Shown here: in pieces, positions 10,239 to 24,694 of the stretch
Numbering within the stretch: the stretch's first letter is position 1
Layout of the letters: the number at the start of each line of letters is the position of its first letter
DNA from: Sphingopyxis sp. KK2
GTDB lineage: Bacteria; Pseudomonadota; Alphaproteobacteria; Sphingomonadales; Sphingomonadaceae
Direction: 5' to 3'
NCBI RefSeq assembly: GCF_001990265.1
Contig: NZ_LYVN01000012.1
Location: 1-52,793, forward strand
Length of the DNA stretch: 52,793 bases
The notes under the pieces: generated by a model
What the model saw: only the letters and a program-made list of their open reading frames with translations
Told to the model about the DNA's origin: nothing
Databases searched by the model: none
Made by a program: the position numbers and the translations under genes

Positions 10239-10315
10239 GGCGGAGTAGCTCAGCTGGTTAGAGCACCGGAATCATAATCCGGGTGTCGGGGGTTCAAGTC
10301 CCTCCTCCGCTACCA
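10239..10315 (+). tRNA. tRNA-Met (CAT), elongator type
   Basis: A 77-base cloverleaf. The acceptor strands GGCGGAG and CTCCGCT pair with one G-T at the tip. The D-arm is AGCTCAGCTGGTTAGAGC, and the anticodon stem CCGGA/TCCGG encloses the loop ATCATAA (anticodon CAT). The T-loop is GGTTCAAGTCC and CCA is encoded. The first acceptor pair and the rest fit an elongator rather than an initiator. An integrase gene follows 191 bases downstream, so the 3' end is a likely integration site. Confidence 0.95.
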
Positions 10316-10506
10316 AAGACCCATATTCCACCAACGACCCATTTTGACCACCGGTGGATTTTTCTGCAATAAAATCAACTATTTCTTGCGGTTCATTGCG
10401 TGCTTGGGCGTCCCGTTGCGGCTCGCTGCGACCACCCACGTCGATTTGAATTGGGGGTATTTTGGGGGTATTTTTGGCCTGTCCCCAAAACAGGCGATAC
10501 CCCCAC

Positions 10507-11865
10507 ATGGCTCTCAAGGAACTCGAAGTAAAATATGCCACCAAGCGACAGCGGCCCTACAAGCTGTCCGACGGGGAGGGGCTGCACCTGCTCGTTCAGC
10601 CCAGCGGAGCGAAGCTCTGGCGTCTGAAATATCGGTTCGACGGCAAGGAAAAGCTGCTCAGCTTCGGCAAATATCCGGTCGTCACGCTGGCAATCGCCCG
10701 CGAGAAGCGCTGGGAAGCCAAGCGCCTGCTCGATCAGGGCAAAGACCCGGCGGAGGCGAAGAAACAGGCGAAAAGGCAGCGGGCTGCCCTCAAGCTGTTC
10801 GAGGAGATCGCGCGGGCCTGGCATCGGAATCGCGCCGAGGGGCTCGACCCGGCGCACGCCAAGCGTGTCATCAACCGGATGGAGCGCGACGTCTTTCCCG
10901 TCATCGGCAAGCGCCCCATCGCCGAAATCGACGCCCCCGAGATTCTGGAAATGATCAGGGCGGTCGAAGCGCGTGGTGCCCTCGACGTCAGCCGGCGCCT
11001 CAAGCAGGGCGTGAGCCAGGTTTTCCGGTTCGCGATCGCGAGCGGCTGGGCGACGGTCGATCCCACCCTCGGCCTCAACGATGCGCTCAGGCCCAAACCG
11101 CCCGTCAGGCACATGGCGCGCGTGCCTCTCGCCGAGTTTCCGACGCTGGTTCGCGCTATCCTGGCCTATGACGGCGAGGAAACGCCCCGGAGGAGCGACA
11201 TCACGCGCGACGCGCTCATGTTCACCCTTCTGACCTGGGCCCGGACGAGTGAAACCCGGTTTGCCAGATGGGACGAGTTCGAGAATCTCGACGGGGAGCA
11301 ACCGCTCTGGCGGTTGTCGTGCGAACGCATGAAGATGGAGCGCGAGCATCTTGTGCCGCTGTCGTGCCAGGCCGTCGAGCTGCTGCGCCGTCGCCGCCGG
11401 GAAACCAACAGCGACTTCGTGTTTCCAGGTGCCAAGCAGGAGAAGCCGATTTCAGAGAATACGATGATCTATGCCTGTTATCGCATGGGATATCGCCGAC
11501 GCCAGACGGTGCACGGGTTTCGGGGGCTGGCTTCAACCTGGGCGAACGAAGCCGAGTGCTACAAACCCGATTGGATCGAGATGGCGCTGGCGCACGAGGA
11601 CGAAGATGAAGTGCGCGGGGCGTATAACAGCGCGCTCTATCTCACCCCGCGACGGCGAATGCTCCAGGATTGGGCGAACATGATCGATGAAATCGCCAGA
11701 CCTCCGAGCGTCGGGGACCGTGTGGCGCGCGCAGAGCCGCCGAGATCGACGAGCCCTCACCGGGTTGAGCCCGAGCCTCAACGCCTGTTGCCGGAGACGC
11801 GTGACGCTTTCTGGCGGCGGCCACGTCGACCGGTGCTTATTACGGCAACGGATATTCGCGACTGA
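10507..11865 (+). CDS. P4-type tyrosine integrase (DUF4102 N-terminus)
   Basis: A 452-residue site-specific recombinase. The N-terminal domain M-A-L-K-E-L-E-V-K, then Y-K-L-S-D-G-E-G-L-H-L-L-V, is the DUF4102 arm-binding region. The catalytic domain shows the first Arg in W-A-R-T-S-E-T-R, the H-x-x-R box as H-G-F-R, A-L-A-H-E, and the tyrosine in G-A-Y-N-S-A. I chose ATG 10507, since the longer TTG start at 10462 adds residues unlike the family. It is full length, with no sign of decay. Its place right after tRNA-Met marks the left end of an integrative element. Its C-terminal tail is longer than usual. Confidence 0.93.
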   Translation: MALKELEVKYATKRQRPYKLSDGEGLHLLVQPSGAKLWRLKYRFDGKEKLLSFGKYPVVTLAIAREKRWEAKRLLDQGKDPAEAKKQAKRQRAALKLFEEIARAWHRNRAEGLDPAHAKRVINRMERDVFPVIGKRPIAEIDAPEILEMIRAVEARGALDVSRRLKQGVSQVFRFAIASGWATVDPTLGLNDALRPKPPVRHMARVPLAEFPTLVRAILAYDGEETPRRSDITRDALMFTLLTWARTSETRFARWDEFENLDGEQPLWRLSCERMKMEREHLVPLSCQAVELLRRRRRETNSDFVFPGAKQEKPISENTMIYACYRMGYRRRQTVHGFRGLASTWANEAECYKPDWIEMALAHEDEDEVRGAYNSALYLTPRRRMLQDWANMIDEIARPPSVGDRVARAEPPRSTSPHRVEPEPQRLLPETRDAFWRRPRRPVLITATDIRD

Positions 11866-11973: not shown

Positions 11974-11997
11974 TTAACACAACATTCGTTTGCAGAA
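11974..11997. promoter_or_regulatory. Shared 24-bp dyad, upstream of PhyH1
   Basis: Left arm TTAACACAAC, spacer ATTC, right arm GTTTGCAGAA. The left arm matches the cluster consensus TTTACGCAAC at 8 of 10 positions; the right arm is degenerate. It lies 54-78 bases before the PhyH1 start. Confidence 0.5.
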
Positions 11998-12051
11998 TCA
12001 TTCCGCCTCGTTTATCTGTGGGTCGCAGTCCAGTATCGGGAGAAACGCGTC

Positions 12052-12897
12052 ATGGAAGAGTCGGTAAGGAAGGCCTATCGGGAGGACGGCGCCGTTCTCA
12101 TGAAGAATGTCCTTAACGCGGAACAGTTGGCAGCGTGTCGCGACATCTACGACTGGATTGTCGCGAATCCGGGTCCCAATGGTCATGCCCTGTATCGGGG
12201 GGACCAAAAGGAGCACATCTCGTCGCACGTCGACAATGCCAATCCGCTCGTTAAGGATCGCCTTGACCGTTTCGTGGCAACGCTGCCCCTCGGCGACCTG
12301 TTCGCCGACCTCTGGGGATCCCGGAATGTCTGGTACTTCGCCGAGGAGGTCTTCCTGAAGGCCGGCGGCGAAGGCACCCGTACCTATTGGCATCAGGACA
12401 CCTCCTATCTTCCCTGGGCCGGAAATCACTGGGGGAACGCCTGGATCAGTTTCGAGCCTATCCCCAAGAAGAACGCGCTCGAGATCATTCGCGGCTCGCA
12501 TCGGGGGCCGCTCTACGACGGCACGACCTTCAGTCCGAACGACCCGACCGACCCGCTCCATGGCGGCGACGCGCTGCCACGTCTCCCGGACATCGAGGCG
12601 GAACGCAAGGCCGACCCGGGCAAGTATGAGGTACTTTCCTGGGCAACCGAGCCGGGTGACGTGCTATTCCTGCATCCCGGCTCACTTCACGGCGGCGCGA
12701 ACGTCGACGCCGATTGTCCCGAGCGACATACGCTCGTCTTCCGCTTTTTCGGCGATGACGCGACCTTCCGTCCGCTGCCTGCGGTCAGCAAGTCGGGCTA
12801 TGAGCGCAACGGCAATCTTTTCAAGGAAGAGGTTGCCAAGATGGAGCCCGGCGCGCCTTTCCGCGCATCGATCTTCCCGCAAATCGTCGAAGCATGA
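12052..12897 (+). CDS. PhyH-family Fe(II)/2OG dioxygenase 1
   Basis: A 281-residue member of the phytanoyl-CoA dioxygenase family, which uses Fe(II), O2 and 2-oxoglutarate to hydroxylate or otherwise oxidise small molecules. The iron triad is H114-x-D116 in W-H-Q-D-T-S-Y-L-P-W, and H213 in S-L-H-G-G. The nearby R-H-T-L-V-F-R-F supplies candidate 2OG-binding arginines. A conserved block G-N-x-W-Y-F-A-E-E precedes the H-x-D. It is clearly paralogous to the dioxygenase at 15923-16762 (same lengths, motifs and spacing). It starts the cluster after the integrase, has a dyad operator upstream, and ends at a strong terminator, so it is a single-gene unit. The substrate is unknown. Confidence 0.88.
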   Translation: MEESVRKAYREDGAVLMKNVLNAEQLAACRDIYDWIVANPGPNGHALYRGDQKEHISSHVDNANPLVKDRLDRFVATLPLGDLFADLWGSRNVWYFAEEVFLKAGGEGTRTYWHQDTSYLPWAGNHWGNAWISFEPIPKKNALEIIRGSHRGPLYDGTTFSPNDPTDPLHGGDALPRLPDIEAERKADPGKYEVLSWATEPGDVLFLHPGSLHGGANVDADCPERHTLVFRFFGDDATFRPLPAVSKSGYERNGNLFKEEVAKMEPGAPFRASIFPQIVEA

Positions 12898-12967
12898 CGG
12901 CCGTCGACGCTCGGCCGTAGCCGATCCTGAGTATCTCCCGCCGATTATTCGGCTCCGGGCAACTGAC

Positions 12968-13003
12968 GCGGCGGCGGCGGAACTCCGCCGCCGCCGCTCT
13001 TTT
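12968..13003 (+). terminator. Intrinsic terminator after PhyH1
   Basis: A perfect 13-bp G/C stem with an AACT loop (12981-12984) is followed by TCTTTT. Confidence 0.85.
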
Positions 13004-13313
13004 GTTGTCTTCCTGACGTTCGTTCCGCGGGCCGGATCGGCGCGGGCGGTCTAGGCCGGCACCGGCGCAGCACCGGCCTGATCGACCTCCTGCTGGCGCA
13101 CAGAATGTCCCCGTGCCGACCATAGAATGGCGAGCCGTCGATAATCTGGCTGGATATGCAAGCGCGTCGAGGATTTCGCGGACGGCCAGCCGCCCTCAGG
13201 GGGGCAGGCGACAGCCGCAGGCCAATCGGTCCAACAAGCACGATAATGTCACCTGTCACGCCATCGATGTGACGCCTGGCAAGGTGTCCGCGCCCGACGG
13301 CTCGATATCCTAC

Positions 13314-13337
13314 TTTGCAAAACATATGTTGCGTAAA
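13314..13337. promoter_or_regulatory. Shared 24-bp dyad at the FAD oxidase promoter
   Basis: Arms TTTGCAAAAC and GTTGCGTAAA flank ATAT, and the centre AACATATGTT is a perfect palindrome. The right arm contains TTGCGT, which with TATTCT at 13351-13356 (16-bp spacer) makes a sigma70-like promoter. Binding would therefore cover the -35. Confidence 0.65.
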
Positions 13338-13474
13338 ACTGCGACCTTGTTATTCTCATAGTCCGGACCTGCGCAGGCATGCGCATGACAACGGGTTTTC
13401 GAGGCATTTCGGCGTTCCCGGCGCGGGTCGCTCGGGTTCCGCGCTCCACGCAGCGCGGAAGAAGATGGGGAAGC

Positions 13475-14821
13475 ATGATGCAAGATAGTCAGGGCACCGC
13501 CAACGTCACCAGTCGCTATCGTCCCATCGGCGGCTGGCTGGAGACGCCGCGCGATTTGCAACCAAGCCTCGACACATCCGTCACGGCTGACGTCGTCGTG
13601 GTTGGAGGGGGATTTGCCGGCCTTTCGACCGCGCTCGAATTGGCCTCCACTGCTGCCGATGTCGTGCTGCTCGAACAGGAGTTTGCGGGCTTCGGCGCGA
13701 GCGGCCGAAATGCCGGCTATCTCGCCGGCGGCCAAGGTCTCGATTATGACATGTTCCTCAAGCGTGTGAGCGCCGACCAGGTCAGGCAAATCGTTCGCTA
13801 CTTCGAGGAAGGTGTGACCTATGTCGAAGGGAAGATAGCGCAGTACGGGATTGAATGCGACTATCTGAGGACAGGTCTCCTCCGTGCCGGCATCCACCCC
13901 TCACAGGAAAAGAAGCTTCGCGAAAGCATGGCGCACGGCAACGAATTTGGTGCGTCGGCGCAATTTCTGGGTGAAAAGGAGCTACGCGCACGCGGCATCC
14001 CGCCCGCGTTCCTTTTCGGCTACCTGACGGCCAATGGCGGGACCCTGCAGCCTGGCAAATATGTGCTCGGGCTGCGGCGCGCCGCGATCGATGCCGGGGT
14101 TCGGATTTTCGAGAAGAGCCCGCTCGTTCGCTATGTCGAAGGCCCGACCGTCCGGTGCGAGACCGAAAAGGGATCCGCGACGGCGCCGTTCGTCGTGTTC
14201 GCCACCAATGGCTACACGCCGCAACTCGGCCTTCTCCGCGACAAGGTCGTGCCGATCCGCGTATCCGCGCTCGAAACCCAGCCCCTCACGCCAGCCCAGC
14301 TCGCGGCACTCGGATGGGAGAATAGGGAAGGGATAACAACCCAGCATCTGATCATGGAGAGCCATCGTCTGACCGTCGATAACCGGCTGGTTCTGACCAC
14401 GAAGCATCTCGATTACGTATATGGCTCGAAGACCCCCAACGTTCCCGACAAGGTGGCTTACAAGGAGCTGGCGGGGCTCTTGGGCGAGCGCTTCCCGATG
14501 CTGGGACGCGTCGCGGTGCGAGCTTGCTGGAGCGGCTATATCAGTTTCGCCTATGATGCCTTGCCGGTCGTGGGCGAAACAGGCGACCGCGGGAACATCC
14601 TCTACACTGCCGGCTGCTCGGGCCATGGCGTGGGCACCCAATCCTATGTTGGACGGCTGTTGTCGGACCGGGTGCGCGGGATCGAACATCCCATGCTTGC
14701 CGCGCTTCGCCACGCAACGCCGCGCACGTTGCCCGAGCCGCTCCAGTGGGGCATGATGAAGTCGATGTTTGGCGCAGCCCATTTCCTTGACAACCGCGTC
14801 AATCGCAAGGTTCGCAACTGA
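13475..14821 (+). CDS. FAD-dependent amine oxidase-type oxidoreductase (DAO family)
   Basis: A 448-residue flavoprotein of the DAO/OrdL group. The FAD-binding loop G44-G-G-F-A-G49 and the acidic end of strand 2 (V-V-L-L-E-Q-E) are followed by G-A-S-G-R-N-A-G-Y, typical of gamma-glutamylputrescine oxidase-like enzymes. The C-terminal part has Y-T-A-G-C-S-G-H-G-V-G-T closing the flavin site. The family oxidises primary or secondary amines or N-methyl groups with O2, giving imine/aldehyde and H2O2. I chose ATG 13475 (GGGGAA upstream) over the longer frame from 13379. It is convergent with the TetR gene downstream. Confidence 0.82.
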   Translation: MMQDSQGTANVTSRYRPIGGWLETPRDLQPSLDTSVTADVVVVGGGFAGLSTALELASTAADVVLLEQEFAGFGASGRNAGYLAGGQGLDYDMFLKRVSADQVRQIVRYFEEGVTYVEGKIAQYGIECDYLRTGLLRAGIHPSQEKKLRESMAHGNEFGASAQFLGEKELRARGIPPAFLFGYLTANGGTLQPGKYVLGLRRAAIDAGVRIFEKSPLVRYVEGPTVRCETEKGSATAPFVVFATNGYTPQLGLLRDKVVPIRVSALETQPLTPAQLAALGWENREGITTQHLIMESHRLTVDNRLVLTTKHLDYVYGSKTPNVPDKVAYKELAGLLGERFPMLGRVAVRACWSGYISFAYDALPVVGETGDRGNILYTAGCSGHGVGTQSYVGRLLSDRVRGIEHPMLAALRHATPRTLPEPLQWGMMKSMFGAAHFLDNRVNRKVRN

Positions 14822-14830
14822 ATTCCCTAT

Positions 14831-14861
14831 CCGGCGACGGGGCGGCAGCGCCCATCGCCGG
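14831..14861. terminator. Hairpin between convergent oxidase and TetR1 genes
   Basis: CCGGCGA (14831-14837) pairs with TCGCCGG (14855-14861), with an inner GGGCG/CGCCC extension. There is no long T run, so it is a probable bidirectional terminator. Confidence 0.5.
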
Positions 14862-14873
14862 CGTGAGGGCCGA

Positions 14874-15509
14874 TCAGCTGCGCGATGGCGCCATCTGCCG
14901 AAGCAAGGCGTCGAGGAGCCGGTCGACCCGCTCAGGCGTGAAGCGGTCGGGCTCGATCGGTAACATCATCGCCCATCCATCGGCGAGAGCGGCGATCTGT
15001 TCGGCAAGCAGCTCCGCGGAAATGTCGTCACGGATCGTTCCCGATTTCTGTTGAGCTTCGATCCGCCTCGTGGTGATACGGCGGTATTGCGCGTAGGTAT
15101 CCCTGTATATCGCAGCAAGCTCCGCGTCATGACGCGCGCGCGTCAAAAGCTGGAAACCGGCAGGCCATATAAAAGAATCCGCGTTGATGTCGAACCAGTG
15201 TTCAAAACGGCGACGATAATCGCCGATATCTTCGCCAGCATAAAGCATCTCGTCGAACCGTTGGAACATATATTCGACGATCGCGGCGAACAGCTGCTCC
15301 TTGTTCGCAAAATAATAGGTTACCGCGCCCGTCGTATATCCGGCCTTTTTTGCAACTTTGCGCAGCGATGCGCCGCCCAGTCCCAATTCAGCGATAACCT
15401 GGACACCGGCGTTGAGCAGCTCGATCCGCCTGGCTTCGCGGTCGCCGACGGGACGTCCCCTGCGTATTGTCACGTTGTCAGTGGGGGAGAGATGCCCATC
15501 GCCTTTCAT
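14874..15509 (-). CDS. TetR-family regulator 1 of the PhyH cluster
   Basis: A 211-residue TetR repressor. The basic R-R-G-R-P-V-G-D-R-E-A lead-in is followed by the HTH A-S-L-R-K-V-A-K-K-A-G-Y-T-T-G-A-V-T-Y-Y-F-A-N-K-E. The recognition part T-T-G-A-V-T-Y-Y-F is identical to that of the second TetR at 22650-23321, so both should bind the same DNA. The C-terminal ligand domain differs between them. I use the ATG at 15509; a TTG six bases further upstream is possible. A version of the cluster dyad lies at 15544-15567, about 35-58 bases upstream, which suggests autoregulation. Confidence 0.88.
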   Translation of the reverse strand: MKGDGHLSPTDNVTIRRGRPVGDREARRIELLNAGVQVIAELGLGGASLRKVAKKAGYTTGAVTYYFANKEQLFAAIVEYMFQRFDEMLYAGEDIGDYRRRFEHWFDINADSFIWPAGFQLLTRARHDAELAAIYRDTYAQYRRITTRRIEAQQKSGTIRDDISAELLAEQIAALADGWAMMLPIEPDRFTPERVDRLLDALLRQMAPSRS

Positions 15510-15543
15510 ACGCAAAGCGTAGCGCCATTACGCTTCCGATCAA

Positions 15544-15567
15544 TTGAAATGTCGTGCGTTTTTAAAA
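15544..15567. promoter_or_regulatory. Shared dyad upstream of TetR1
   Basis: Arms TTGAAATGTC and GTTTTTAAAA around GTGC, the same spacer as at the PhyH2 site. The arms are degenerate, so this is a weak match. Confidence 0.4.
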
Positions 15568-15845
15568 AACGGCGACGAGTTCGCTTTGCGACGTCTCATC
15601 ATCGGTCGTGGACTAACGCTGCAATCTGCCCGCGTCGATCGAAGACGACGACCGCTGCCGCCGGCGGACGGGAGCATTGTCGAAATCGGAGCGGGCGCGG
15701 GTGCTCCTGACAGGACCGGTATGCTGGTCGTTTCGAACCAGCCGTTGCTTCAGCACAGCGCCGAACGAAACGCATTATTGCGATGAAGCCCGCGGCACCG
15801 TCGCATGAGACCGTCTTCCGCTTGTGCCGACAGCTGACCAGCTTA

Positions 15846-15869
15846 TTTAGATATCGTGCGTTGCGTAAA
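15846..15869. promoter_or_regulatory. Shared 24-bp dyad at the PhyH2 promoter
   Basis: Arms TTTAGATATC and GTTGCGTAAA around GTGC. The right arm is identical to that at the FAD oxidase promoter and includes TTGCGT as a possible -35, with TATGGC 17 bases on. It is 54-77 bases before the start codon. Confidence 0.6.
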
Positions 15870-15922
15870 TATGATTCAGCGGCTATGGCGGAGTCGGAAT
15901 CATATTTTAGGGAGCTGCAAAA

Positions 15923-16762
15923 ATGGATGCTGCGTTGCGTAGGAGCTTCGATGATGATGGCGCTGTCGTCGTAAGGAACTGCCTCGATAGCGATCAACTG
16001 GCACTGTGCCGGGGTGCGTTCGACTGGGCCGTTGAAAACCATGGGCCGAATGCTTCCATGATGTTCGAGGGGACGGAGCAGCAGTCGCACGTCGACAACG
16101 CCAATCCGAACGCCAAAGAGCGCCTGGACGAACTGGTGACTCAACTGCCGTTCGGGAAAATTTTCGCCGACCTGTGGGGCTCGGAAAACGTCTGGTATTT
16201 TGCCGAAGAGATCTTTTTCAAGACGGGTGGCAATAGCGCCCGGACCTCCTTCCATCAGGATACCTCCTATCTGCCTTGGACCGGCAAGCATTGGGGCAAC
16301 GCCTGGATCAGTTTCGAGGCGGTGCCGAAGAAGAATTCGCTGGAGATCGTCAAGGGTTCGCATCGCGGAATCCAGTATGATGGTCCCAATTTCACGGATC
16401 CCAACGACCCGACCTCGCCCCTCCACGGCGAGGCGGCAGTGCCTTTCCTGCCGCGTCTTCCCGACATCGACGCCGAGCTCGCCCGCGATCCGGCCGCCTA
16501 TGACATTCTCTCGTGGGCAGTCGAGCCGGGCGATGTGGTGCTCCTCCACCCGCACTCGCTGCACGGCGGCGCACAAACCGATCCCGACTTCCCGACCCGC
16601 CACACGCTGGTCCTGCGCTTCTTCGGTGACGATGCGACCTTCCGCTCGCTTCCCGAGAGCAATTCCGGCCTCGGTCGGGGCGGCATCCTGTTCACCGAAG
16701 AAATGGACAAGCTCAAGGACGGTGACCGCTTCCGCGCGCCGGTGTTCAAGAAACTCGTCTGA
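15923..16762 (+). CDS. PhyH-family Fe(II)/2OG dioxygenase 2
   Basis: A 279-residue paralogue of the dioxygenase at 12052-12897. The iron ligands are H111-Q-D113 in F-H-Q-D-T-S-Y-L-P-W and H214 in S-L-H-G-G-A, with the same following R-H-T-L-V-L-R-F-F-G-D-D-A-T-F block. The main visible differences are a shorter loop near residue 50 and changes around the entrance residues after H-x-D (T-G-K for A-G-N). That fits a related but not identical substrate, or a second step on the same molecule. AGGGAG lies eight bases before the ATG. It is a single-gene unit divergent from TetR1. Confidence 0.88.
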   Translation: MDAALRRSFDDDGAVVVRNCLDSDQLALCRGAFDWAVENHGPNASMMFEGTEQQSHVDNANPNAKERLDELVTQLPFGKIFADLWGSENVWYFAEEIFFKTGGNSARTSFHQDTSYLPWTGKHWGNAWISFEAVPKKNSLEIVKGSHRGIQYDGPNFTDPNDPTSPLHGEAAVPFLPRLPDIDAELARDPAAYDILSWAVEPGDVVLLHPHSLHGGAQTDPDFPTRHTLVLRFFGDDATFRSLPESNSGLGRGGILFTEEMDKLKDGDRFRAPVFKKLV

Positions 16763-17637
16763 CGCGCGATTTGGGTGCCGCCCCGTTTCACCGAGGGTGA
16801 TGCATCCAGACTGCCGGGCGTTTCCATATCGCGGGAGCGCCCGGCGTCGACCGGTATCGGGTTCGGCCGCGACGGGAACAGCCATCGAAGGCGGCTTCGT
16901 GTTCGGCGCTATTGCACCCCGCCTCTTGGTGTCGGACGCGGAAGTTGGACGAGGTATCTGACGTATTTTTCCGCGACTGGGCGGAGGTCGCCCATCCTAT
17001 GCGGTACGATTCACTGGACGCTCGCTGCGCGCCTCTGACAGGCGAGCGGTCTCGTGAGGCTCTCTTCGGTCCCGAAGCCGCTGCCTGACCCGTCTTCGGG
17101 CCAAGTGCCGCCCGGTCGCCCGGGCACGGCAAATTCCAGACCCCATGTTTCCGCTCATCCTGTCCGGCGCTGGCGGCCGACCGGACAGGCGGTAGCGTCC
17201 AGAGCCCCGTTCCGCGAAACCTTCGCTGAACCGCAACCCCATATGCGCAATGAAGCCGTCGCACGCGCTGCAGAGGCCTTGCCCTATTCTAGCGGGCCTG
17301 ACGTGGGGTAGAAGTCTGCCACTATTACCAGGGGTGTCATCGGCGTGCGGCGGCCCAAGCCGTGAAGACCCTGACTGGTCTGGCGGAAGTGGCTTTGCCC
17401 GGCGCATCGCATGTGCCTCAATCGGCCCAGACCTGTCGGCGTTCGACATGTCTTCCTGGAACCGGCACAGCAAGGCAATGGCCGGCGCCGACGTCCGGCG
17501 GTGCCGGAAATCAGGTCAGGACTTGAAACGTCTTTGCCCCGACCCGAACGGAGGCGGGCGGGCTCCGTCAGAAGCCCGCCCGCTCATGTCCGGGACGCTT
17601 CAAGGCGCAGCGGCTATGCCGCGGCGCCTCGAACCCG
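16763..17637. other. 875-base gene-free stretch
   Basis: No frame here looks like protein on either strand: the open frames are Arg/Pro-rich and have no family pattern. The TBDT terminator hairpin lies near its right end. It may be the remains of a lost gene. Confidence 0.45.
17554..17583 (-). terminator. Hairpin after the TonB-dependent receptor
   Basis: GCGGGCGGGC (17554-17563) pairs perfectly with GCCCGCCCGC (17574-17583) around a 10-base loop, 55 bases after the receptor stop. No T run follows on the minus strand. Confidence 0.55.
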
Positions 17638-20121
17638 TCACCATTTTCTGGTGAGACGGATACCCAGTTCGCGCGGGCGCGAGACCGAGAAGGCTTCGCC
17701 CCAGTCGCCCACGAGCGCATAAGACGACAAGGTCCGAACATTGGCACCATAGACGACCCGCTTGTTGGTCAGGTTGGTCCCGAACAACTCGATCTTCCAG
17801 TCGTCGACGTCATACCCGATGCTGCCATTGAACATGATGTACGCGGGCGCCTTGCGAGCAGGCGCGTTGATGCTCAGACTCCGAAGTTGATTGATCGTGG
17901 AGCTGCGGAAATCGAAGCCGAGATTGAAGGTCAGTGCGCTGTCCGCGAAATTATGCTCGTAGGTGAGCGAACCGGCGCCGCTCCAGTCGGGCGCACCGGG
18001 CAGCCGGTCGCCCGAGCTGCCGTGGATGGCGTCCGGCACGATGCCGCCTGCGGCATTCCCGGCGGGATAGCTGAAGTCGCCCGTCAGTCGCGCGCGGGCG
18101 TACGCCAACCCCAGGCTGAAGCTCAGGCCCTGCGGGCCGATGGGACCCTGGAGTTCGGCCTCGAAGCCCTTCGACGTGGCCTCGGTTCCGTTCACAACGG
18201 CGGGATAGAGGTTGAACGGCGTTTGCAGATCGATCTGCGGATCGTCCCATTTGATGTAGAAAGCGCTCAGCGAATAATAGATGCGCGAGAATTTGCCCTT
18301 CGCTCCGATTTCGAAGTTGTTGGTGCGATCGGGCTTGTAGACCAGCAGCGGCTCGGGCTCGAGGCCGAGGCCCGAGAGCGCGAATGCGTTGGTCCCGCCG
18401 CGGCGGAAGCCTTGCGAGAAGGTGGCGTAAATCTGGCCATCCTCATACCATTTGTACGATGTGTTCAGCTTGAAGATCTGGTCGGTGACCTTGTTCGCAT
18501 TGGCAGCGGCAAAGTCGAAGATGAACAGCTGGCTTGCGCCCGCCAGCGTCGAACTGAATTTCTGCCGGAAGATGCGGGCGCCGCCGGTGACCGACCAGGC
18601 ATCGGTCACGTGCCAGGTCAGATCGCCGTAGAAGGAAATCTCGTTGAACTTCTGGTTCGCCACCTGGCCATAGGTTTCGCCATCGGCAAGCGTCGGCACA
18701 TACCCGCCTCCAAGGACGCGTGGGACGCGCGACCCGCTTGCAGCGAAGCTCTGATCGCTTGCGCCGGGGGCGTAAACGAACAGGCCGATCCGGCGCTTGT
18801 GCTGCTGAAGGAATACGCCGGCCGTGTAGTCGATGGGTCCGCCCTCGCTGGACACGATGCGCAGTTCCTGCGTCCAGGAGCGTTCGTTGTCGGAATTCAG
18901 CACGGGCAATACGGCGCGCGGGTTGGCGGGCGTTCCGGTATAATAGACACCGTAAGGCGAGCCGAGCAGAGCGACCGTGGAGTCGTTGACGATTTCCCCT
19001 TCGGTCTTGCCGTAGGCGATCGTCGAGGAAACGGTGGCGAAGCCGAGGTCGTAGCTCATGTCGAGCGTTGCAAGCTGCGTGCGGCGCTCCCAGGGTTCCA
19101 GGGTTGGAACCGAGCGCTCATAGTCGCCCGTGGCCTCCAATGTGCGTCGCGGATCGAGCGGCGAAGGCCCGCCGGCAAAAGCATTGTTGTCGATATTGCC
19201 GCCGTTGCCGCGTGACTTCGCGAAATTATAGGCGAGGTTTACCGAAAGATCGTCGGTCGGTTCCCACAGAAGCGAAGCCCGCGCCGAAGTCGTTCGCGCA
19301 AAGTTATAATCCTTCTTGTCGAAATAGACGCCGGGGCTGTTGGCAACATCAGCTTGGTCCGCGAGCACAGGGGCTCCGGTGAGATAGCTGTCTCCTTGCC
19401 GTTTCAGCACATCGCGGGCATTGATGAAGCCGCCTTCATATTCGTGCCGGGCATTAAGACGCAGCGCCAGACGGTCGCCGATCGGAAGGTTGACCGTTCC
19501 TGCGAACAGATAGGAGGGATCGCTCGAATGGGCGGTCGTTCCGATAGAAGCGGTGACCGATCCGCTGGTCTCGCCCAGCCGCGGCTCGTTGGGAACGATA
19601 CGCACCGCGCCGGCAAGCGAGCCGGCTCCATAGAGCGTTCCCTGCGGTCCGCGCAGAACTTCGACGCGCCCGATGTCATAAAGCGGCAGCGACCCCGTTA
19701 TGGACGCATTGCCGAGGTAGAAACCCACCGGTGACTGAAAGTAGCGCGCGGCCGCGGTCGTCGGCTGCGAGGCGTTGAGGCCGCGAATGATGGGAATCTG
19801 CGATGCCGACGTGCGCGCGCCGCTATCGATGATGTTGAAGTTTGGAACCTGACGGGTCAGCGATGCGACATCGGTTACATTGGCGCGCTCGAGCTGCTCG
19901 TTGCCATAGGCCGAGATATTGAAGGGCAGGCTCGTCACCGTCTCTTCGCGGCGGCTTGCGGTCACGATGATGTCGCCCTGGTTCTCGACCTCTTTGGAGG
20001 CTGGCGCAGCTTCCTGCGCCTGCACGTCCATCGCCGGCAGCAGCGCTGCAAGACCGACCAGACAGCTGGCGGCGTGCAGCATGGCCCTGCGGCGTTGCAT
20101 GGTCCTTTGGTGTGTGATCAT
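17638..20121 (-). CDS. TonB-dependent outer-membrane receptor
   Basis: An 827-residue receptor for active uptake across the outer membrane. A signal peptide ends near A-Q-A-Q-E, and a TonB box-like G-D-I-I-V-T-A-S-R-R is followed by the plug domain (N-I-S-A-Y-G, R-Q-V-P-N-F-N-I, I-I-R-G-L-N, V-E-V-L-R-G-P-Q-G-T-L-Y-G). The beta-barrel ends in the terminal R-L-T-R-K-W with the C-terminal aromatic. It is of the sphingomonad catabolic type, with no siderophore signature. I chose the internal ATG (M-I-T-H-Q-R) because AAGGGGAG lies seven bases before it; a start 21 bases upstream lacks such a site. A cluster dyad is found in its promoter. Confidence 0.93.
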   Translation of the reverse strand: MITHQRTMQRRRAMLHAASCLVGLAALLPAMDVQAQEAAPASKEVENQGDIIVTASRREETVTSLPFNISAYGNEQLERANVTDVASLTRQVPNFNIIDSGARTSASQIPIIRGLNASQPTTAAARYFQSPVGFYLGNASITGSLPLYDIGRVEVLRGPQGTLYGAGSLAGAVRIVPNEPRLGETSGSVTASIGTTAHSSDPSYLFAGTVNLPIGDRLALRLNARHEYEGGFINARDVLKRQGDSYLTGAPVLADQADVANSPGVYFDKKDYNFARTTSARASLLWEPTDDLSVNLAYNFAKSRGNGGNIDNNAFAGGPSPLDPRRTLEATGDYERSVPTLEPWERRTQLATLDMSYDLGFATVSSTIAYGKTEGEIVNDSTVALLGSPYGVYYTGTPANPRAVLPVLNSDNERSWTQELRIVSSEGGPIDYTAGVFLQQHKRRIGLFVYAPGASDQSFAASGSRVPRVLGGGYVPTLADGETYGQVANQKFNEISFYGDLTWHVTDAWSVTGGARIFRQKFSSTLAGASQLFIFDFAAANANKVTDQIFKLNTSYKWYEDGQIYATFSQGFRRGGTNAFALSGLGLEPEPLLVYKPDRTNNFEIGAKGKFSRIYYSLSAFYIKWDDPQIDLQTPFNLYPAVVNGTEATSKGFEAELQGPIGPQGLSFSLGLAYARARLTGDFSYPAGNAAGGIVPDAIHGSSGDRLPGAPDWSGAGSLTYEHNFADSALTFNLGFDFRSSTINQLRSLSINAPARKAPAYIMFNGSIGYDVDDWKIELFGTNLTNKRVVYGANVRTLSSYALVGDWGEAFSVSRPRELGIRLTRKW

Positions 20122-20739
20122 CGCTTTACTCCCCTTGCTCATTGTTTGTGTGACGGCTTTGTCGGTGTCTGTCCGGCGGCTGAGCTGCCTGCCGTGCTGT
20201 CAGCATTTGTCGGGTGCTTGAGCTGGGGAGGCGCCGGGGGGCGGCCGCGCCAGGGAAGCGACATCGCCCGATCATCGGTCGGATGGCCAATGTGCGATCG
20301 CCGATGACACGCGACATATCCGCATCCTCCCGGACGTTGGAATCTGCACCGGCAGCTGGTGGCCGCCGTTTTCATCACTAATGTTATGTCAAATATTTCG
20401 GGGATGTCGAGAGCGATTTTCATGCATGTTCGCGGAACGACCAGAATGAGCCCCGCCATGGGTTTGCCTGTCACAAACCATTGAAAAATGAGGCTTAAAG
20501 TACCTGCTTCGAGACGTTCGAAACGCTCTCGCCATGCGCTCGGACAATTTTCCGCCTCGCATGTGATATATTTGCAACGACAGTCGTTCTTGAAAATATG
20601 GCGGCGCCGACTTCCTGCGCCCGAGTCGGCCGGCGGGACACGCGCGCGGACCGGCTCGTCCTGCGGCGGGATGCGTCTCGCGATCCAGCGATCGCAAGCG
20701 GGCGCCCGCCCTTGAAACGGGTGAAACCGGGCGTGGCGG
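20122..20739. other. Promoter region of the receptor gene and MFS tail
   Basis: About 620 bases without a gene. The receptor promoter and dyad are at 20369-20392; the rest shows nothing recognisable. Confidence 0.5.
20369..20392. promoter_or_regulatory. Shared dyad upstream of the TonB receptor
   Basis: Read on the plus strand: TTTTCATCAC, TAAT, GTTATGTCAA. The right arm is identical to that of the MFS site. On the minus (coding) strand it gives a perfect TTGACA, a likely -35, about 250 bases before the receptor start. Confidence 0.55.
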
Positions 20740-22068
20740 TCATGGCGTCACCTTCCCGAAATCTGCTTGCGCGGTTCGCAAGGGCGCCAGATTGCAATAG
20801 TGGGCACAGAACAAAATGATCCACGACAACAGGATCAGCGCGCCACCGACGCTCAGAAATGCCTCGACCGACCAGTGGGTCAGAAACCAGCCTGTGAATT
20901 TGGTCCCGCCTGCAGTGCCCAGCGCGTGGATGGCAGGGAAGGCCACAAAAATTCTACCCGACCTGTCCAGTTCACGCGCAATGCCCAGCAGATAGGCGTA
21001 GGCTGCGGTAACGAAGGCGCCCTGGATCGCCAGCGCCGCGATAAACACGTCGGGCTGGCGAAACGTCAGGGCAGGATAGGTCAGCACGACTGCAGCCATC
21101 GCAACGGTTATCATCGTTATTGGCGATCCCAGCCGTCTGCCGATCAGGGCCGGCGCAATGCCGCCGACCAGCGAGCCGATGAGTCCAGCCGCGACAAGCG
21201 CGCCCGCCCCGTTCACTTCCATCCCGTTCGCAACGCCTATGACGCCCACGAAATTGTAAATGCCACCCCAGCTCACGCCAAGGAAGATCGCCCCCGCCAC
21301 CATCGCCAGCAGCGGAGCGGCGAGCATCCGCGCGGACAGCCGATCCTGCTGGACGTGCGACGCGTGCGCCGCATCGGACGATAGCAGGCGACGCCCTAAC
21401 CCCAGCGCCAAGGGCGTCGAAATGGCGAACAGGATCGCGCCCATCAGGAATGTCTGGACGATGCCGATGCCCGGCATTGCGAAGGAGATGAGCGTCGCGA
21501 TCAACGTCGAGCCGAATATGGCAAGACTATAGGTCCGGGTAGGATTTGGGGTGTCGCCGAGGATGGCGAAGGCGGGCGTGGCGGCGAAGCCCGTCGAGAG
21601 GCCGATTACGAACCATCCGGCGACCAGGGACGACAGATCCGAGAAAAAGGAAATGAAAAGCAGCGAGCCTGCAGCAACGAGCAAAGCGGCGGCGCTGGAT
21701 GTCATGACATTCACACGCCTGAGCCATAAGGGACCCGCGGCGATGACAATGCCGTGTCCAAGGACATAGGCCGAACCAACCGAACCCATCTGGCTTTCGT
21801 TGAGCTTCATGCCTTCGCGCAGCAACTCGAGGACCGTCGGAAGGATATTCGTCGGAAGGATGCCCAGCGTCCAGATGAGGCCTGCGCAGAGAAGGAGAAC
21901 GGTCGCTCGATCCGATTGCGGTCGCACCTTTGACAGATAGGCATCCCTCGCATTGGGCGTTCGGACGGCAGGATGTGGCAAGTCAGCCTTCACGCCGGTA
22001 GCGACTTCGCACGCCGTAGCTGGTTCGCCACTCTCGCCGCCGGCGGCCCACGGTCCGGATTCAGTCAT
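20740..22068 (-). CDS. MFS permease of the PhyH cluster
   Basis: A 442-residue major-facilitator protein with about 12 hydrophobic helices and a hydrophilic N-terminal extension of roughly 45 residues. No family fingerprint points to a substrate. Together with the TonB receptor it offers a full two-membrane import path, although export of a product cannot be excluded. I chose M-T-E-S-G-P-W as start (GGAG about nine bases upstream). The promoter is well formed on the minus strand, TTGACA at 22217-22222 and TATTGT at 22195-22200 with a 16-bp spacer, and is overlapped by the cluster dyad. Confidence 0.82.
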   Translation of the reverse strand: MTESGPWAAGGESGEPATACEVATGVKADLPHPAVRTPNARDAYLSKVRPQSDRATVLLLCAGLIWTLGILPTNILPTVLELLREGMKLNESQMGSVGSAYVLGHGIVIAAGPLWLRRVNVMTSSAAALLVAAGSLLFISFFSDLSSLVAGWFVIGLSTGFAATPAFAILGDTPNPTRTYSLAIFGSTLIATLISFAMPGIGIVQTFLMGAILFAISTPLALGLGRRLLSSDAAHASHVQQDRLSARMLAAPLLAMVAGAIFLGVSWGGIYNFVGVIGVANGMEVNGAGALVAAGLIGSLVGGIAPALIGRRLGSPITMITVAMAAVVLTYPALTFRQPDVFIAALAIQGAFVTAAYAYLLGIARELDRSGRIFVAFPAIHALGTAGGTKFTGWFLTHWSVEAFLSVGGALILLSWIILFCAHYCNLAPLRTAQADFGKVTP

Positions 22069-22649
22069 ATCGTTGCTCCGGTGGACGGCCATGGAGGCTG
22101 CCTGCCCAGGAGATGTCACGCACGGGGTTCGGCCTGTGTCAGCCTTCGCCCGCCGCTCGGTTTCCCGGTTCGGCTCGTCGTCCAGTCGACTCGGACAATA
22201 ATCGTAACAATAGTTATGTCAACGGTCGGGCCGGCCCGGGCTCGAGGCGCTTCGGTGCGGCACCCGTCCCGCGGAATCGGGCAGCCGTCGTCGCAAACCG
22301 TCCTTCCGCCTTGGCGGGCGATCTGCCGTTGTTGTTATACCCCCGGTAACGTCGAGTTCCGCCCGGCAGAAATCGCACGGCGGGGTGGGAGGGCAAGATA
22401 GCTTCGCACGCGTCGCCGTTTTCGAGGGTAAGACAAAAGGAGGAGGCGCGACCGCATTCCATCGGCAGATGGCACCGCGGACGTTAGAGTCGGTGCGACA
22501 TCGTATCCGTGACGATCACCCAGGGGGCCAGCCGGGGGGATCGGAGGTGGTGCGCGAAGTGCTCGGCAAGCGTCCAGCGCATCGAGGTCATTGCGCGGGA
22601 CTTGGCGACAGTCCCAAGCCGGCCTTGGGTCCGACGCCGGCTTGGGCCG
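22069..22649. other. Control region between MFS and TetR2 genes
   Basis: About 580 bases holding the MFS promoter and dyad (22195-22222). The remainder has G/C-rich short repeats but no gene. Confidence 0.5.
22199..22222. promoter_or_regulatory. Shared dyad overlapping the MFS promoter
   Basis: Arms TAATCGTAAC and GTTATGTCAA around AATA; the inner TAAC-N4-GTTA is a perfect dyad. It spans the -35 and spacer of the minus-strand TTGACA-16-TATTGT promoter, so a bound TetR would block polymerase. Confidence 0.65.
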
Positions 22650-23321
22650 TTACCGCCGAACCGCTTTCGCGGGCGGTTCGATCATCTTGAGAACGGCATC
22701 GGTCAGTTCGTCCATGCGGGTCCCGACAAAGCGTTCGGGCTCGATCGGGAACATCATCGCCCAGCCGTCCGCGAGGGCAGCGATCTGATCGGCGATGATA
22801 TCGGCGGCGATGTCGTCTCGTACCTCCCCCGACCGTTGCTGCATGGCTACCGTCGCCGTGAGCCTGGCGCGGTACGCCGAATATCGGCGCTGATAAATCT
22901 CTGCCAATGCCGGTTCATGGCGGGCCTGCGCCAGCAGCTGAAACTGCGCCATCCATTGGTCGGAATCGGTATTCATTTCTTTCCAGCGGCGGAATCGCTG
23001 CCTCAAGTCGCCCACTGCTCCGCCTATGTCCAGCAGCGTGTCCCACTCGTCGAACAGATGCTCGAGGATAGCGCGAACCATCGCTTCCTTGTTCTGGAAA
23101 TAATAGGTGACGGCCCCCGTCGTGTGTCCCGCCCGGCTCGCGACCTTGCGGAGCGAAGCACCGCTATATCCGAGTTCCGCAATCGTCGCGATGCCGGCGC
23201 GGAGCAGTTCGTTCCGTTTGCTTTCGCGGTCCCCCACGGGGCGGCCTCGACGCGCTACCGTCTGGTCGTCTGGATCGCCGTCGTCTTCGAACGCGGCTGC
23301 GGGAGCATGCTTGGTCATCAT
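22650..23321 (-). CDS. TetR-family regulator 2 of the PhyH cluster
   Basis: A 223-residue TetR repressor. The HTH reads A-S-L-R-K-V-A-S-R-A-G-H-T-T-G-A-V-T-Y-Y-F-Q-N-K-E and is preceded by R-R-G-R-P-V-G-D-R-E-S, almost the same as TetR1. The ligand domain is only moderately alike (shared P-D/A-F-Q-L-L-A/T-x-A-R-H and D-G-W-A-M-M-x-P-I-E-P-x-R-F). Two regulators reading one operator with different ligand domains could integrate substrate and intermediate signals. No full dyad is clear in front of it; a lone half-site TTAAGGCAAC lies at 23355-23364. Confidence 0.87.
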   Translation of the reverse strand: MMTKHAPAAAFEDDGDPDDQTVARRGRPVGDRESKRNELLRAGIATIAELGYSGASLRKVASRAGHTTGAVTYYFQNKEAMVRAILEHLFDEWDTLLDIGGAVGDLRQRFRRWKEMNTDSDQWMAQFQLLAQARHEPALAEIYQRRYSAYRARLTATVAMQQRSGEVRDDIAADIIADQIAALADGWAMMFPIEPERFVGTRMDELTDAVLKMIEPPAKAVRR

Positions 23322-23473
23322 GCCACCACCCCTACAGAAACAATCCGCAAAAGCAATTAAGGCAACGAATGATCTAAGATTGCGGGACGACCATCGAATC
23401 TATGGCCCTGAAGAACTCGCTGGTAACTTGTCTGCCGTTCCCCAGGGCCGCGATGGAGAACGGCCTCGTCCGG

Positions 23474-24337
23474 TCAGTTCTTCAGGAAATCGCCGAGCTC
23501 GGTGAAGTTCACCATCCACACGCCGAACGTTCCGACGGGATATTGCGACCGGAAACCAAGTATCCGCTGGACCCGCTCGGGAAGGTCGCGAACCAGTGCA
23601 GGATCAGCAAGGAACGGTAGCGCGTCTCCCGGGGTCAGATATCCCACAACCAGAGGAATTGTGATGCCGCGGCGATAAACGTCGCGGGTCCGGTTCGCAC
23701 CGCCGGCATGGACCGTTTTGCCGCTGAAGAAGACGGCATCGCCGGCTTCCATTTCCACCGGAACCGACATCTCATGCGAGCCGAGTTCGTCGAAATCGGC
23801 CCATTTGTGGCTGCCGGGAATAACGCGCGTCGCGCCATTCTCCTCGGTGAAATCGGTGAGGGCGATGATGAAATTGACGATGATCTCCGGCCCGGAAGGC
23901 CCCATCGCCTTGAAGGGCGGCCACGCGCCGAGGTCGCGATGCAACATCTGGGCGGGGCTGTTCGGGCCGATTTCGATGACCTGCGACGTGTCCAGCCAGT
24001 AGGTGCCGGACTCCTTCAGAAAGATCGCGTCACCAAGCGCATGGTAGAGGTCATGATCGAGAATTTCCTCCCGGAAGGTGCGGCTTGCCCGGGTTACGTC
24101 GGTCAGGCGCTTTGTATTGGCGCCGTGAAATTCCTTGATCCCCTCCTCGTCATGCTTGCTCCCGACCGACAGGGCCTGCATCGATGGCTCGATGTCGGCA
24201 TTGAGGGCGCGAACCTGGTCGGAGGTCAGGTAGTTTTTGAGGATGACGCAGCCGTCCTCCCCGACAATCGCGAGGATGTCCTCGATGGGGGCCGTGCTCG
24301 GCACCGAGCGGATTGCGCTTTTCGTAAGGGTAGTCAT
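23474..24337 (-). CDS. PhyH-family Fe(II)/2OG dioxygenase 3, divergent type
   Basis: A 287-residue dioxygenase of another PhyH subgroup. The iron ligands are H133-R-D135 in M-L-H-R-D-L-G-A-W-P and H210 in T-V-H-A-G-G-A-N. The block E-I-I-V-N-F-I-I-A-L-T-D-F-T-E-E-N-G-A-T-R-V-I-P-G-S-H recalls the FtmOx1-like group known for multi-step oxidations of natural products, and R222/R223 in Y-R-R-G-I-T may bind 2OG. It shares little beyond the core with dioxygenases 1 and 2, so it probably performs a different step. AAAGGA lies upstream of the ATG, and the cluster dyad is at 24455-24478. Confidence 0.87.
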   Translation of the reverse strand: MTTLTKSAIRSVPSTAPIEDILAIVGEDGCVILKNYLTSDQVRALNADIEPSMQALSVGSKHDEEGIKEFHGANTKRLTDVTRASRTFREEILDHDLYHALGDAIFLKESGTYWLDTSQVIEIGPNSPAQMLHRDLGAWPPFKAMGPSGPEIIVNFIIALTDFTEENGATRVIPGSHKWADFDELGSHEMSVPVEMEAGDAVFFSGKTVHAGGANRTRDVYRRGITIPLVVGYLTPGDALPFLADPALVRDLPERVQRILGFRSQYPVGTFGVWMVNFTELGDFLKN

Positions 24338-24694
24338 TGAGGCGTTATCCTTTCCCGATCAACGGATCCCGATGATGGACGCGACATCATGTCTGTCAGG
24401 CTTTTCGATGCGGAAATCCGTGCGTTTGCCGGTGCTCCCACGTCCCACCAAACATTATCCTAACGATAGTTTTGTAAAAGTCGACCCCTCGAAACATGTG
24501 CGGTGTAAAATCGAAATCGCGCGCGGCCCGGTCAGATCAAGTTGGGCGGTCTCGAGACAGGTGGAACGATATGGGCGGCGCCGTTCCAAAGCGTCCGCTG
24601 GCGAGGCAGCGCCGCTTTTGAGATCGGAGATCCGGCGCGGCGTGCCGTCACGACGTAGATCTACGGCCCGAACGTGCGGACCGCTGGCATGTCC
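24338..24694. other. PhyH3 leader and right edge of the cluster
   Basis: It contains the last cluster dyad (24455-24478) and nothing else recognised. Confidence 0.5.
24455..24478. promoter_or_regulatory. Shared dyad at the PhyH3 promoter
   Basis: Arms TTATCCTAAC and GTTTTGTAAA around GATA. On the minus strand TTTACA serves as -35 with TAATGT about 15 bases on, in nearly the same arrangement as the MFS promoter. Confidence 0.6.

Follow-up and report, generated by a model that had tools for sequence, protein, structure and literature searches.

The DNA analysed here, called the window below, is the entire 52,793-base contig NZ_LYVN01000012.1 (C12) of Sphingopyxis sp. KK2, whose genome comprises 4.34 Mb in 320 contigs, and it carries a cluster of eight genes encoding PhyH-family dioxygenases, an FAD-dependent oxidoreductase, a TonB-dependent receptor, an MFS-type transporter and two TetR-type regulators, TetR1 and TetR2. 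Seven 24-bp sites (S1 to S7 in order of position; Table 1) lie upstream of seven of these genes and are predicted, with a probability of about 0.9, to be the operators of one local TetR-family regulon, the cluster as a whole very probably representing a single catabolic regulon. Good matches to the shared sequence are confined to the cluster in its own genome. In 65 of 71 loci of Pseudomonadota and Actinomycetota, the same palindrome lies close to a TetR relative, which is the basis for assigning the operator to the TetR proteins, and it precedes orthologues of PhyH1 and PhyH2 at a near-constant distance.

All seven 24-mers read as the original prediction had described them, and by position each lies in the promoter region of one of seven cluster genes, on one strand or the other. 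The AAC-N4-GTT centre ascribed to most of them is exact in four of the seven, and their palindromy is partial (5–9 of 12 pairs). The claim that they form one shared operator stands, but not through the consensus first proposed for it: of the 20 fixed letters of that consensus, S1 to S7 match 13, 17, 10, 16, 13, 13 and 14, respectively, and only S2 and S4 are clear of a background in which non-site places reach 14 (47611 and 16136) and 13, whereas all seven sites, including the weak S3, take the leading ranks on a matrix built from other genomes.

This matrix was seeded with one derived from the window sites, and foreign sites were defined as positions scoring at least 20 bits on the window matrix in 71 loci holding a TetR relative, drawn from Pseudomonas, Streptomyces and other Actinomycetota, Cupriavidus, Marinobacter, Alphaproteobacteria and a few other groups. 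A total of 152 such sites were found in 65 loci; shuffled loci (three sets) gave 0, 1 and 2, and 100 column-permuted matrices averaged 0.64 (maximum 4). The foreign matrix comprises 139 distinct sites from other genomes and no window sequence; its sites were chosen by likeness to the window matrix, although a matrix of that kind also served to score the controls. Over the 52.8-kb window it places the seven sites at ranks 1 to 7 (31.1, 28.6, 28.3, 27.0, 25.6, 22.0 and 13.2 bits), with a next-best score of 8.8 bits, while dinucleotide shuffles of the window (n = 100) reached at most 17.6 bits and held 0.04 positions of at least 13 bits per shuffle. The position scoring 8.8 bits, 20572, is at no gene start. 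The half-matching site that follows at rank 9, close to noise, is possibly a weak autoregulatory operator of tetR2.

The distribution of the operator across genomes was examined with pattern searches and not by scoring each position on the matrix. The consensus used, TTWACRYAACNNNNGTTRYGTWAA (TTWACRYAAC-N4-GTTRYGTWAA), was written by eye after viewing the foreign sites; an earlier pattern, too demanding to the left of the core, matched S2 only. When three mismatches are allowed, the 4.34-Mb genome has five matches to the consensus, namely S2, S4, S5, S6 and S7, all at promoters of the cluster, and one to the reversed pattern; S1 (11974) and S3 (15544) are not within this limit. Equally good sites scattered over the genome, which would have counted against a shared operator, were not seen in this search. 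The proposal that scattered single-gene units are bound into one regulon is supported by this confinement together with the palindrome at TetR loci elsewhere, and the sites can be said to mark the borders of the regulon only insofar as none within three mismatches falls outside 11974–24478. A looser core taken from the window sites, AACNNNNGTTDYGTMAA, gave 15 rows at one mismatch (reversed control, 10 rows), of which seven, representing six places (all but S3), are in the cluster; the other eight are elsewhere in the genome, and the foreign matrix gives their stretches no more than 1.0 bit. A third genomic copy of GTTGCGTAAA, on contig C113, was considered as an operator and ruled out at −5.8 bits on that matrix.

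Among 98 other genomes of the same family, the consensus within three mismatches was found at 26 places in 19 genomes, and the reversed pattern at 123 (summed); one of these genomes has five consensus places and also 15 reversed-control places. Among 16 genomes with a TetR relative, a search that took in 16 of the 71 loci, 54 consensus places were found in 15 genomes (reversed control, 18), and 50 of the 54, as counted from the listed coordinates, lie in the fetched TetR locus or at most 27 kb from it.

The genes accompanying the operator in the related loci were identified from crudely picked open reading frames (ORFs), one representative per cluster being scanned against Pfam, so the target counts are approximate. 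An operator lies within 350 bp before the PhyH1/PhyH2 orthologue in 41 of the 51 loci holding one, before the TetR gene in 21 of 61, before an amine oxidase cluster in 19 of 28 and before a DAO-type oxidoreductase in 7 of 22, and smaller operator-bearing clusters encode a porin (5 loci), an FMO-like protein (6), chemoreceptors (4 and 3), MspA (3) and MFS proteins (3 and 2). The distance from the operator to the picked PhyH start has a median of 59 bp and quartiles of 54–60 bp (38 pairs within 0–350 bp), with 55 bp at S1 and 54 bp at S4 in the window, a near-constancy across phyla that is hard to account for without function. Seven plasmid records also contain a TetR relative; three of them, not included in the matrix, were examined, and two have strong sites (37.3 and 35.1 bits), the Cupriavidus plasmid locus having close kin among the matrix loci. 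On a 437-kb plasmid of a Pseudomonas aeruginosa river isolate (NZ_CP093017.1), the operator occurs at a TetR/RidA locus whose neighbours include genes for beta-oxidation, a porin and a chemoreceptor.

Both regulators possess the TetR_N helix-turn-helix (PF00440, 46.7 and 41.8 bits for a cut-off of 24) and share an identical recognition stretch, TTGAVTYYF. A tree of 71 rows places them as sisters (support 100/96), each on a long branch (1.54 for TetR1 and 0.67 for TetR2), the placement of long rows being unsure; L088 and L090, with readings of fewer than 120 residues, were left out of the tree and of the helix table. Two relatives in which the preceding helix is VKLTDVA and not SLRKVA belong to loci reaching only 3.6 (L091) and 14.0 bits (L092) on the foreign matrix, and L089, with AN in place of AG, reaches −2.2 bits. 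L092 is counted among the 65 loci through a site of 20.9 bits on the window matrix, which was kept in the 139 despite its 14.0 bits on the foreign one.

TetR regulators usually have a palindromic site upstream of their own and neighbouring genes. In the cluster, promoter-like matches on the strand of the target gene overlap S1, S4 (two matches), S5 and S6, accounting for five of the ten in the region where 2.9 are expected. S1 overlaps TTAACA-16-AATCAT on the strand of its gene, and S6 overlaps TTGACA-16-TATTGT (10 of 12), the operator covering TTGACA and most of TATTGT, an arrangement that would fit steric repression by a TetR dimer. We infer that dimers of TetR1, TetR2 or both would bind the 24-bp palindrome and act as repressors rather than activators, blocking transcription of the genes for PhyH1, the FAD oxidoreductase, TetR1, PhyH2, the TonB receptor, the MFS-type transporter and PhyH3. 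The repressors may then be released by a ligand, for which the substrate of the cluster or an early product is the likeliest candidate, and the scattered single-gene units would be switched on together.

Several observations weigh against so simple a picture. S3 is weak at 13.2 bits, which makes control of tetR1 less sure, and no promoter-like match overlaps S2, S3 or S7, the match at 24399–24372 lying between S7 and PhyH3, nearer the gene. A de novo search upstream of TetR genes for perfect gapped palindromes with half-sites of 4–5 missed the motif, a failure probably due to imperfect palindromy in the real sites and to coding DNA in the stretches searched; AAC-N4-GTT came third when half-sites of 3 were used (found in 17 of 71 loci, where 2.9 were expected). 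The conservation of TTGAVTYYF among the loci is there by construction, as they were found with peptides that include it. Six of the 71 loci have no site of at least 20 bits; L076 and L080 have no good site although their recognition helix is normal (2.9 and 8.2 bits on the foreign matrix), and the plasmid locus L102 lacks the operator (best 7.4 bits). Of the 152 sites, 39 fall within a picked ORF and 16 have no gene start within 350 bp. One genome with a TetR relative (G777, locus L022) has no place within three mismatches of the consensus, and in another (G786, locus L056) the sole consensus place lies a long way from the TetR gene. Sites also occur without this TetR in two other genomes of the same family. 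In one of them (L110:1501-1524, 31.8 bits), the site lies about 60 bp before the gene for a different TetR-like protein, BetI-like by eye and 33% identical to TetR1 over 64 residues, which suggests that related TetR proteins may share the operator type. In the other (L108:1501-1524, 27.8 bits), it lies near a weak TonB-receptor match (27% identity), with no TetR1 match within the 3 kb examined. The operator is thus not wholly private to the TetR1/TetR2 subfamily.

Other explanations of the seven sites differ widely in plausibility. The most serious of them, though rather unlikely, is that TetR1 controls S1–S4 and TetR2 controls S5–S7 as two sub-regulons with slightly different operators. The strong arms do differ by side, with GTTGCGTAAA at S2 and S4 near tetR1 and GTTATGTCAA or GTTTTGTAAA at S5–S7 near tetR2, and the TetR1 branch is the longer of the two; however, all seven sites fit one matrix, the recognition stretch is the same in both proteins, arms of both types are found at other loci, many with a single TetR match, and with so few sites the division of the arms may be due to chance.

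Control by a global regulator encoded outside the cluster is very improbable. Such a regulator would agree with the presence of at least one place within three mismatches in 19 of the 98 other same-family genomes, yet the genome of strain KK2 has no such place outside the cluster, the sites track TetR genes in two phyla, and the places in the other same-family genomes are fewer than those of the reversed pattern. Least probable of all is a mere resemblance among A+T-rich promoters in a genome of 63% G+C, overread as a motif. Although promoter-like matches overlap four sites, the palindromes are incomplete and the highest single value among 2000 sets of shuffled intergenic stretches, a control that allows for A+T content, was 23.3 bits, these sets contained on average 0.0005 positions of at least 20 bits and 0.009 of at least 13 bits, compared with six and seven observed, and the ranking on the foreign matrix and the PhyH spacing also count against it. 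A single local regulon under TetR1, TetR2 or both is the preferred explanation.

Table 1. Predicted operator sites and genes of the cluster (scores in bits on the foreign matrix; three-mismatch limit refers to the consensus)
Feature	Position	Strand	Details
S1	11974..11997	+	55 bp before PhyH1; TTAACACAAC-ATTC-GTTTGCAGAA; rank 6, 22.0 bits; outside three-mismatch limit
S2	13314..13337	+	before FAD-dependent oxidoreductase gene; TTTGCAAAAC-ATAT-GTTGCGTAAA; rank 1, 31.1 bits; within limit
S3	15544..15567	-	before tetR1; TTGAAATGTC-GTGC-GTTTTTAAAA; rank 7, 13.2 bits, weakest of seven; outside limit
S4	15846..15869	+	54 bp before PhyH2; TTTAGATATC-GTGC-GTTGCGTAAA; rank 5, 25.6 bits; within limit
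S5	20369..20392	-	about 226 bp before TonB-dependent receptor gene; TTTTCATCAC-TAAT-GTTATGTCAA; rank 4, 27.0 bits; within limit
S6	22199..22222	-	before MFS-type transporter gene; TAATCGTAAC-AATA-GTTATGTCAA; rank 2, 28.6 bits; within limit
S7	24455..24478	-	before PhyH3; TTATCCTAAC-GATA-GTTTTGTAAA; rank 3, 28.3 bits; within limit
Possible degenerate eighth site	23357..23380	-	36 bp before tetR2; rank 9, 8.1 bits
tRNA-Met gene	10239-10315		
Tyrosine integrase, beside tRNA gene	10462..11865	+	PF22022, PF13356, PF00589
PhyH1, predicted PhyH-family (Fe/2-oxoglutarate type) dioxygenase	12052..12897	+	PF05721, E 2.7e-19
FAD-dependent oxidoreductase (DAO)	13379..14821	+	PF01266, E 3e-59; real start possibly further in
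TetR1, likely regulon repressor	14874..15515	-	PF00440 and PF13977
PhyH2	15923..16762	+	PF05721; 62% identical to PhyH1 (alignment)
TonB-dependent receptor	17638..20142	-	PF00593, PF07715
MFS-type transporter	20740..22119	-	PF07690, E 2.3e-5, under Pfam cut-off (23.9 vs 33.4 bits)
TetR2, likely second repressor, paralogue of TetR1	22650..23321	-	PF00440; 57% identity (BLASTP)
PhyH3, distant PhyH-family oxygenase	23474..24337	-	PF05721, E 2.8e-40; 29% identity to PhyH1

The cluster follows a tRNA-Met gene and a tyrosine integrase gene and runs in the order PhyH1(+), FAD oxidoreductase(+), tetR1(-), PhyH2(+), TonB receptor(-), MFS-type transporter(-), tetR2(-) and PhyH3(-). Three of its proteins score above the PF05721 cut-off and thus belong to the PhyH dioxygenase family; in the alignment, PhyH1 and PhyH2 show HQD and a distal His, which we take to be their metal-ligand motif, and 2-oxoglutarate-dependent activity is predicted for them. 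Among solved structures, the one nearest to PhyH1 in sequence is the Fe/2-oxoglutarate dioxygenase MysH (PDB 9c9n, E 1.1e-13), the match covering only residues 7–151 and not implying a common substrate. The pathway may oxidise an amine or N-alkyl compound taken up via the TonB receptor, a suggestion much less sure than the assignment of the operator to the TetR proteins; the case for an amine-type nutrient comes from companion genes elsewhere, which encode an amine oxidase, RidA, DAO, an acyl-CoA ligase, a porin and a chemoreceptor.

TetR1 has the domain families of BetI-type repressors (PF00440 and PF13977), but TetR1 and TetR2 score 52.2 and 50.9 against 201.3 for the BetI equivalog TIGR03384 and 50.9 and 46.3 against 118 for NF001978, and they likewise stay below the equivalog of ScbR-type autoregulator receptors (59.4 and 56.2 against 150). 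Unlike BetI systems, this cluster has two paralogous TetR genes and several controlled promoters, and no choline or betaine gene is named among its Pfam matches. The text examined on the Streptomyces polyamine regulators EpuRI and EpuRII (PMC8998196) does not contain 'palindrom', 'binding motif' or 'consensus', and no link to them could be made. A paper on nicotine catabolism (PMC7688666) contains the terms TetR, amine oxidase and RidA. Related loci with TetR and PhyH genes (L022–L090), from Pseudomonas, Cupriavidus, Streptomyces, Nocardia and others, have TetR proteins 42–67% identical to those of the window and carry the same operator in 65 of 71 cases and a PhyH1/PhyH2 orthologue in 51 of 71, mostly 53–72% identical. 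Their operator-bearing neighbours encode an amine oxidase, porin, MspA, FMO-like protein and chemoreceptor, with RidA nearby in some, whereas in the window the operator stands before the TonB receptor gene, and the proteins tested against Pfam gave no match to an amine oxidase domain.

The cluster appears to have been gained horizontally, given the rarity of TetR1 and PhyH1 relatives in the family and the adjacent integrase and tRNA genes. No TetR1 relative at E 1e-35 was detected in 396 other same-family genomes; in a class-wide draw of 384 other genomes, two have one at E 1e-40. For PhyH1, one of 396 same-family genomes holds a relative at E 1e-60 (L113, 49–50% identity); its neighbours there are a match to an integrase and a partial match to a TonB receptor, with no operator in the 3.8 kb examined. 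The window contains no second copy of the tRNA 3' end, and contig C116 has a 24-nt copy of the tRNA-Met 3' end with one mismatch at 12044-12067, where ARAGORN called no tRNA; this copy is a candidate for the other end of a genomic island. An integrase gene 82.5% identical (DNA) to that of the cluster lies on the Porphyrobacter plasmid pYT40 (L111:12148-13473), next to a different TetR/TonB-receptor catabolic cluster.

Local regulons under TetR control are of a known kind, and this one would be a new member; a limited search of open-licence literature turned up no account of its operator and regulon family or of the TetR and PhyH loci elsewhere. A bolder and tentative proposal, more doubtful than not, is that these loci form an undescribed catabolic regulon family spanning phyla, defined by one operator and a TetR/PhyH core and serving an amine-type nutrient, in which the duplicated TetR proteins of strain KK2 would read two different ligands onto the same seven operators. 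The operator offers a way to delimit an orphan catabolic regulon across many genera, and the genes linked to it (PhyH, amine oxidase, FAD oxidoreductase, porin or TonB receptor, MFS transporter and chemoreceptor) sketch how one compound class is taken up, sensed and oxidised. The substrate could be identified through inducer screening with an operator reporter, and how duplicated TetR proteins divide one regulon can be tested directly with the two sister repressors.

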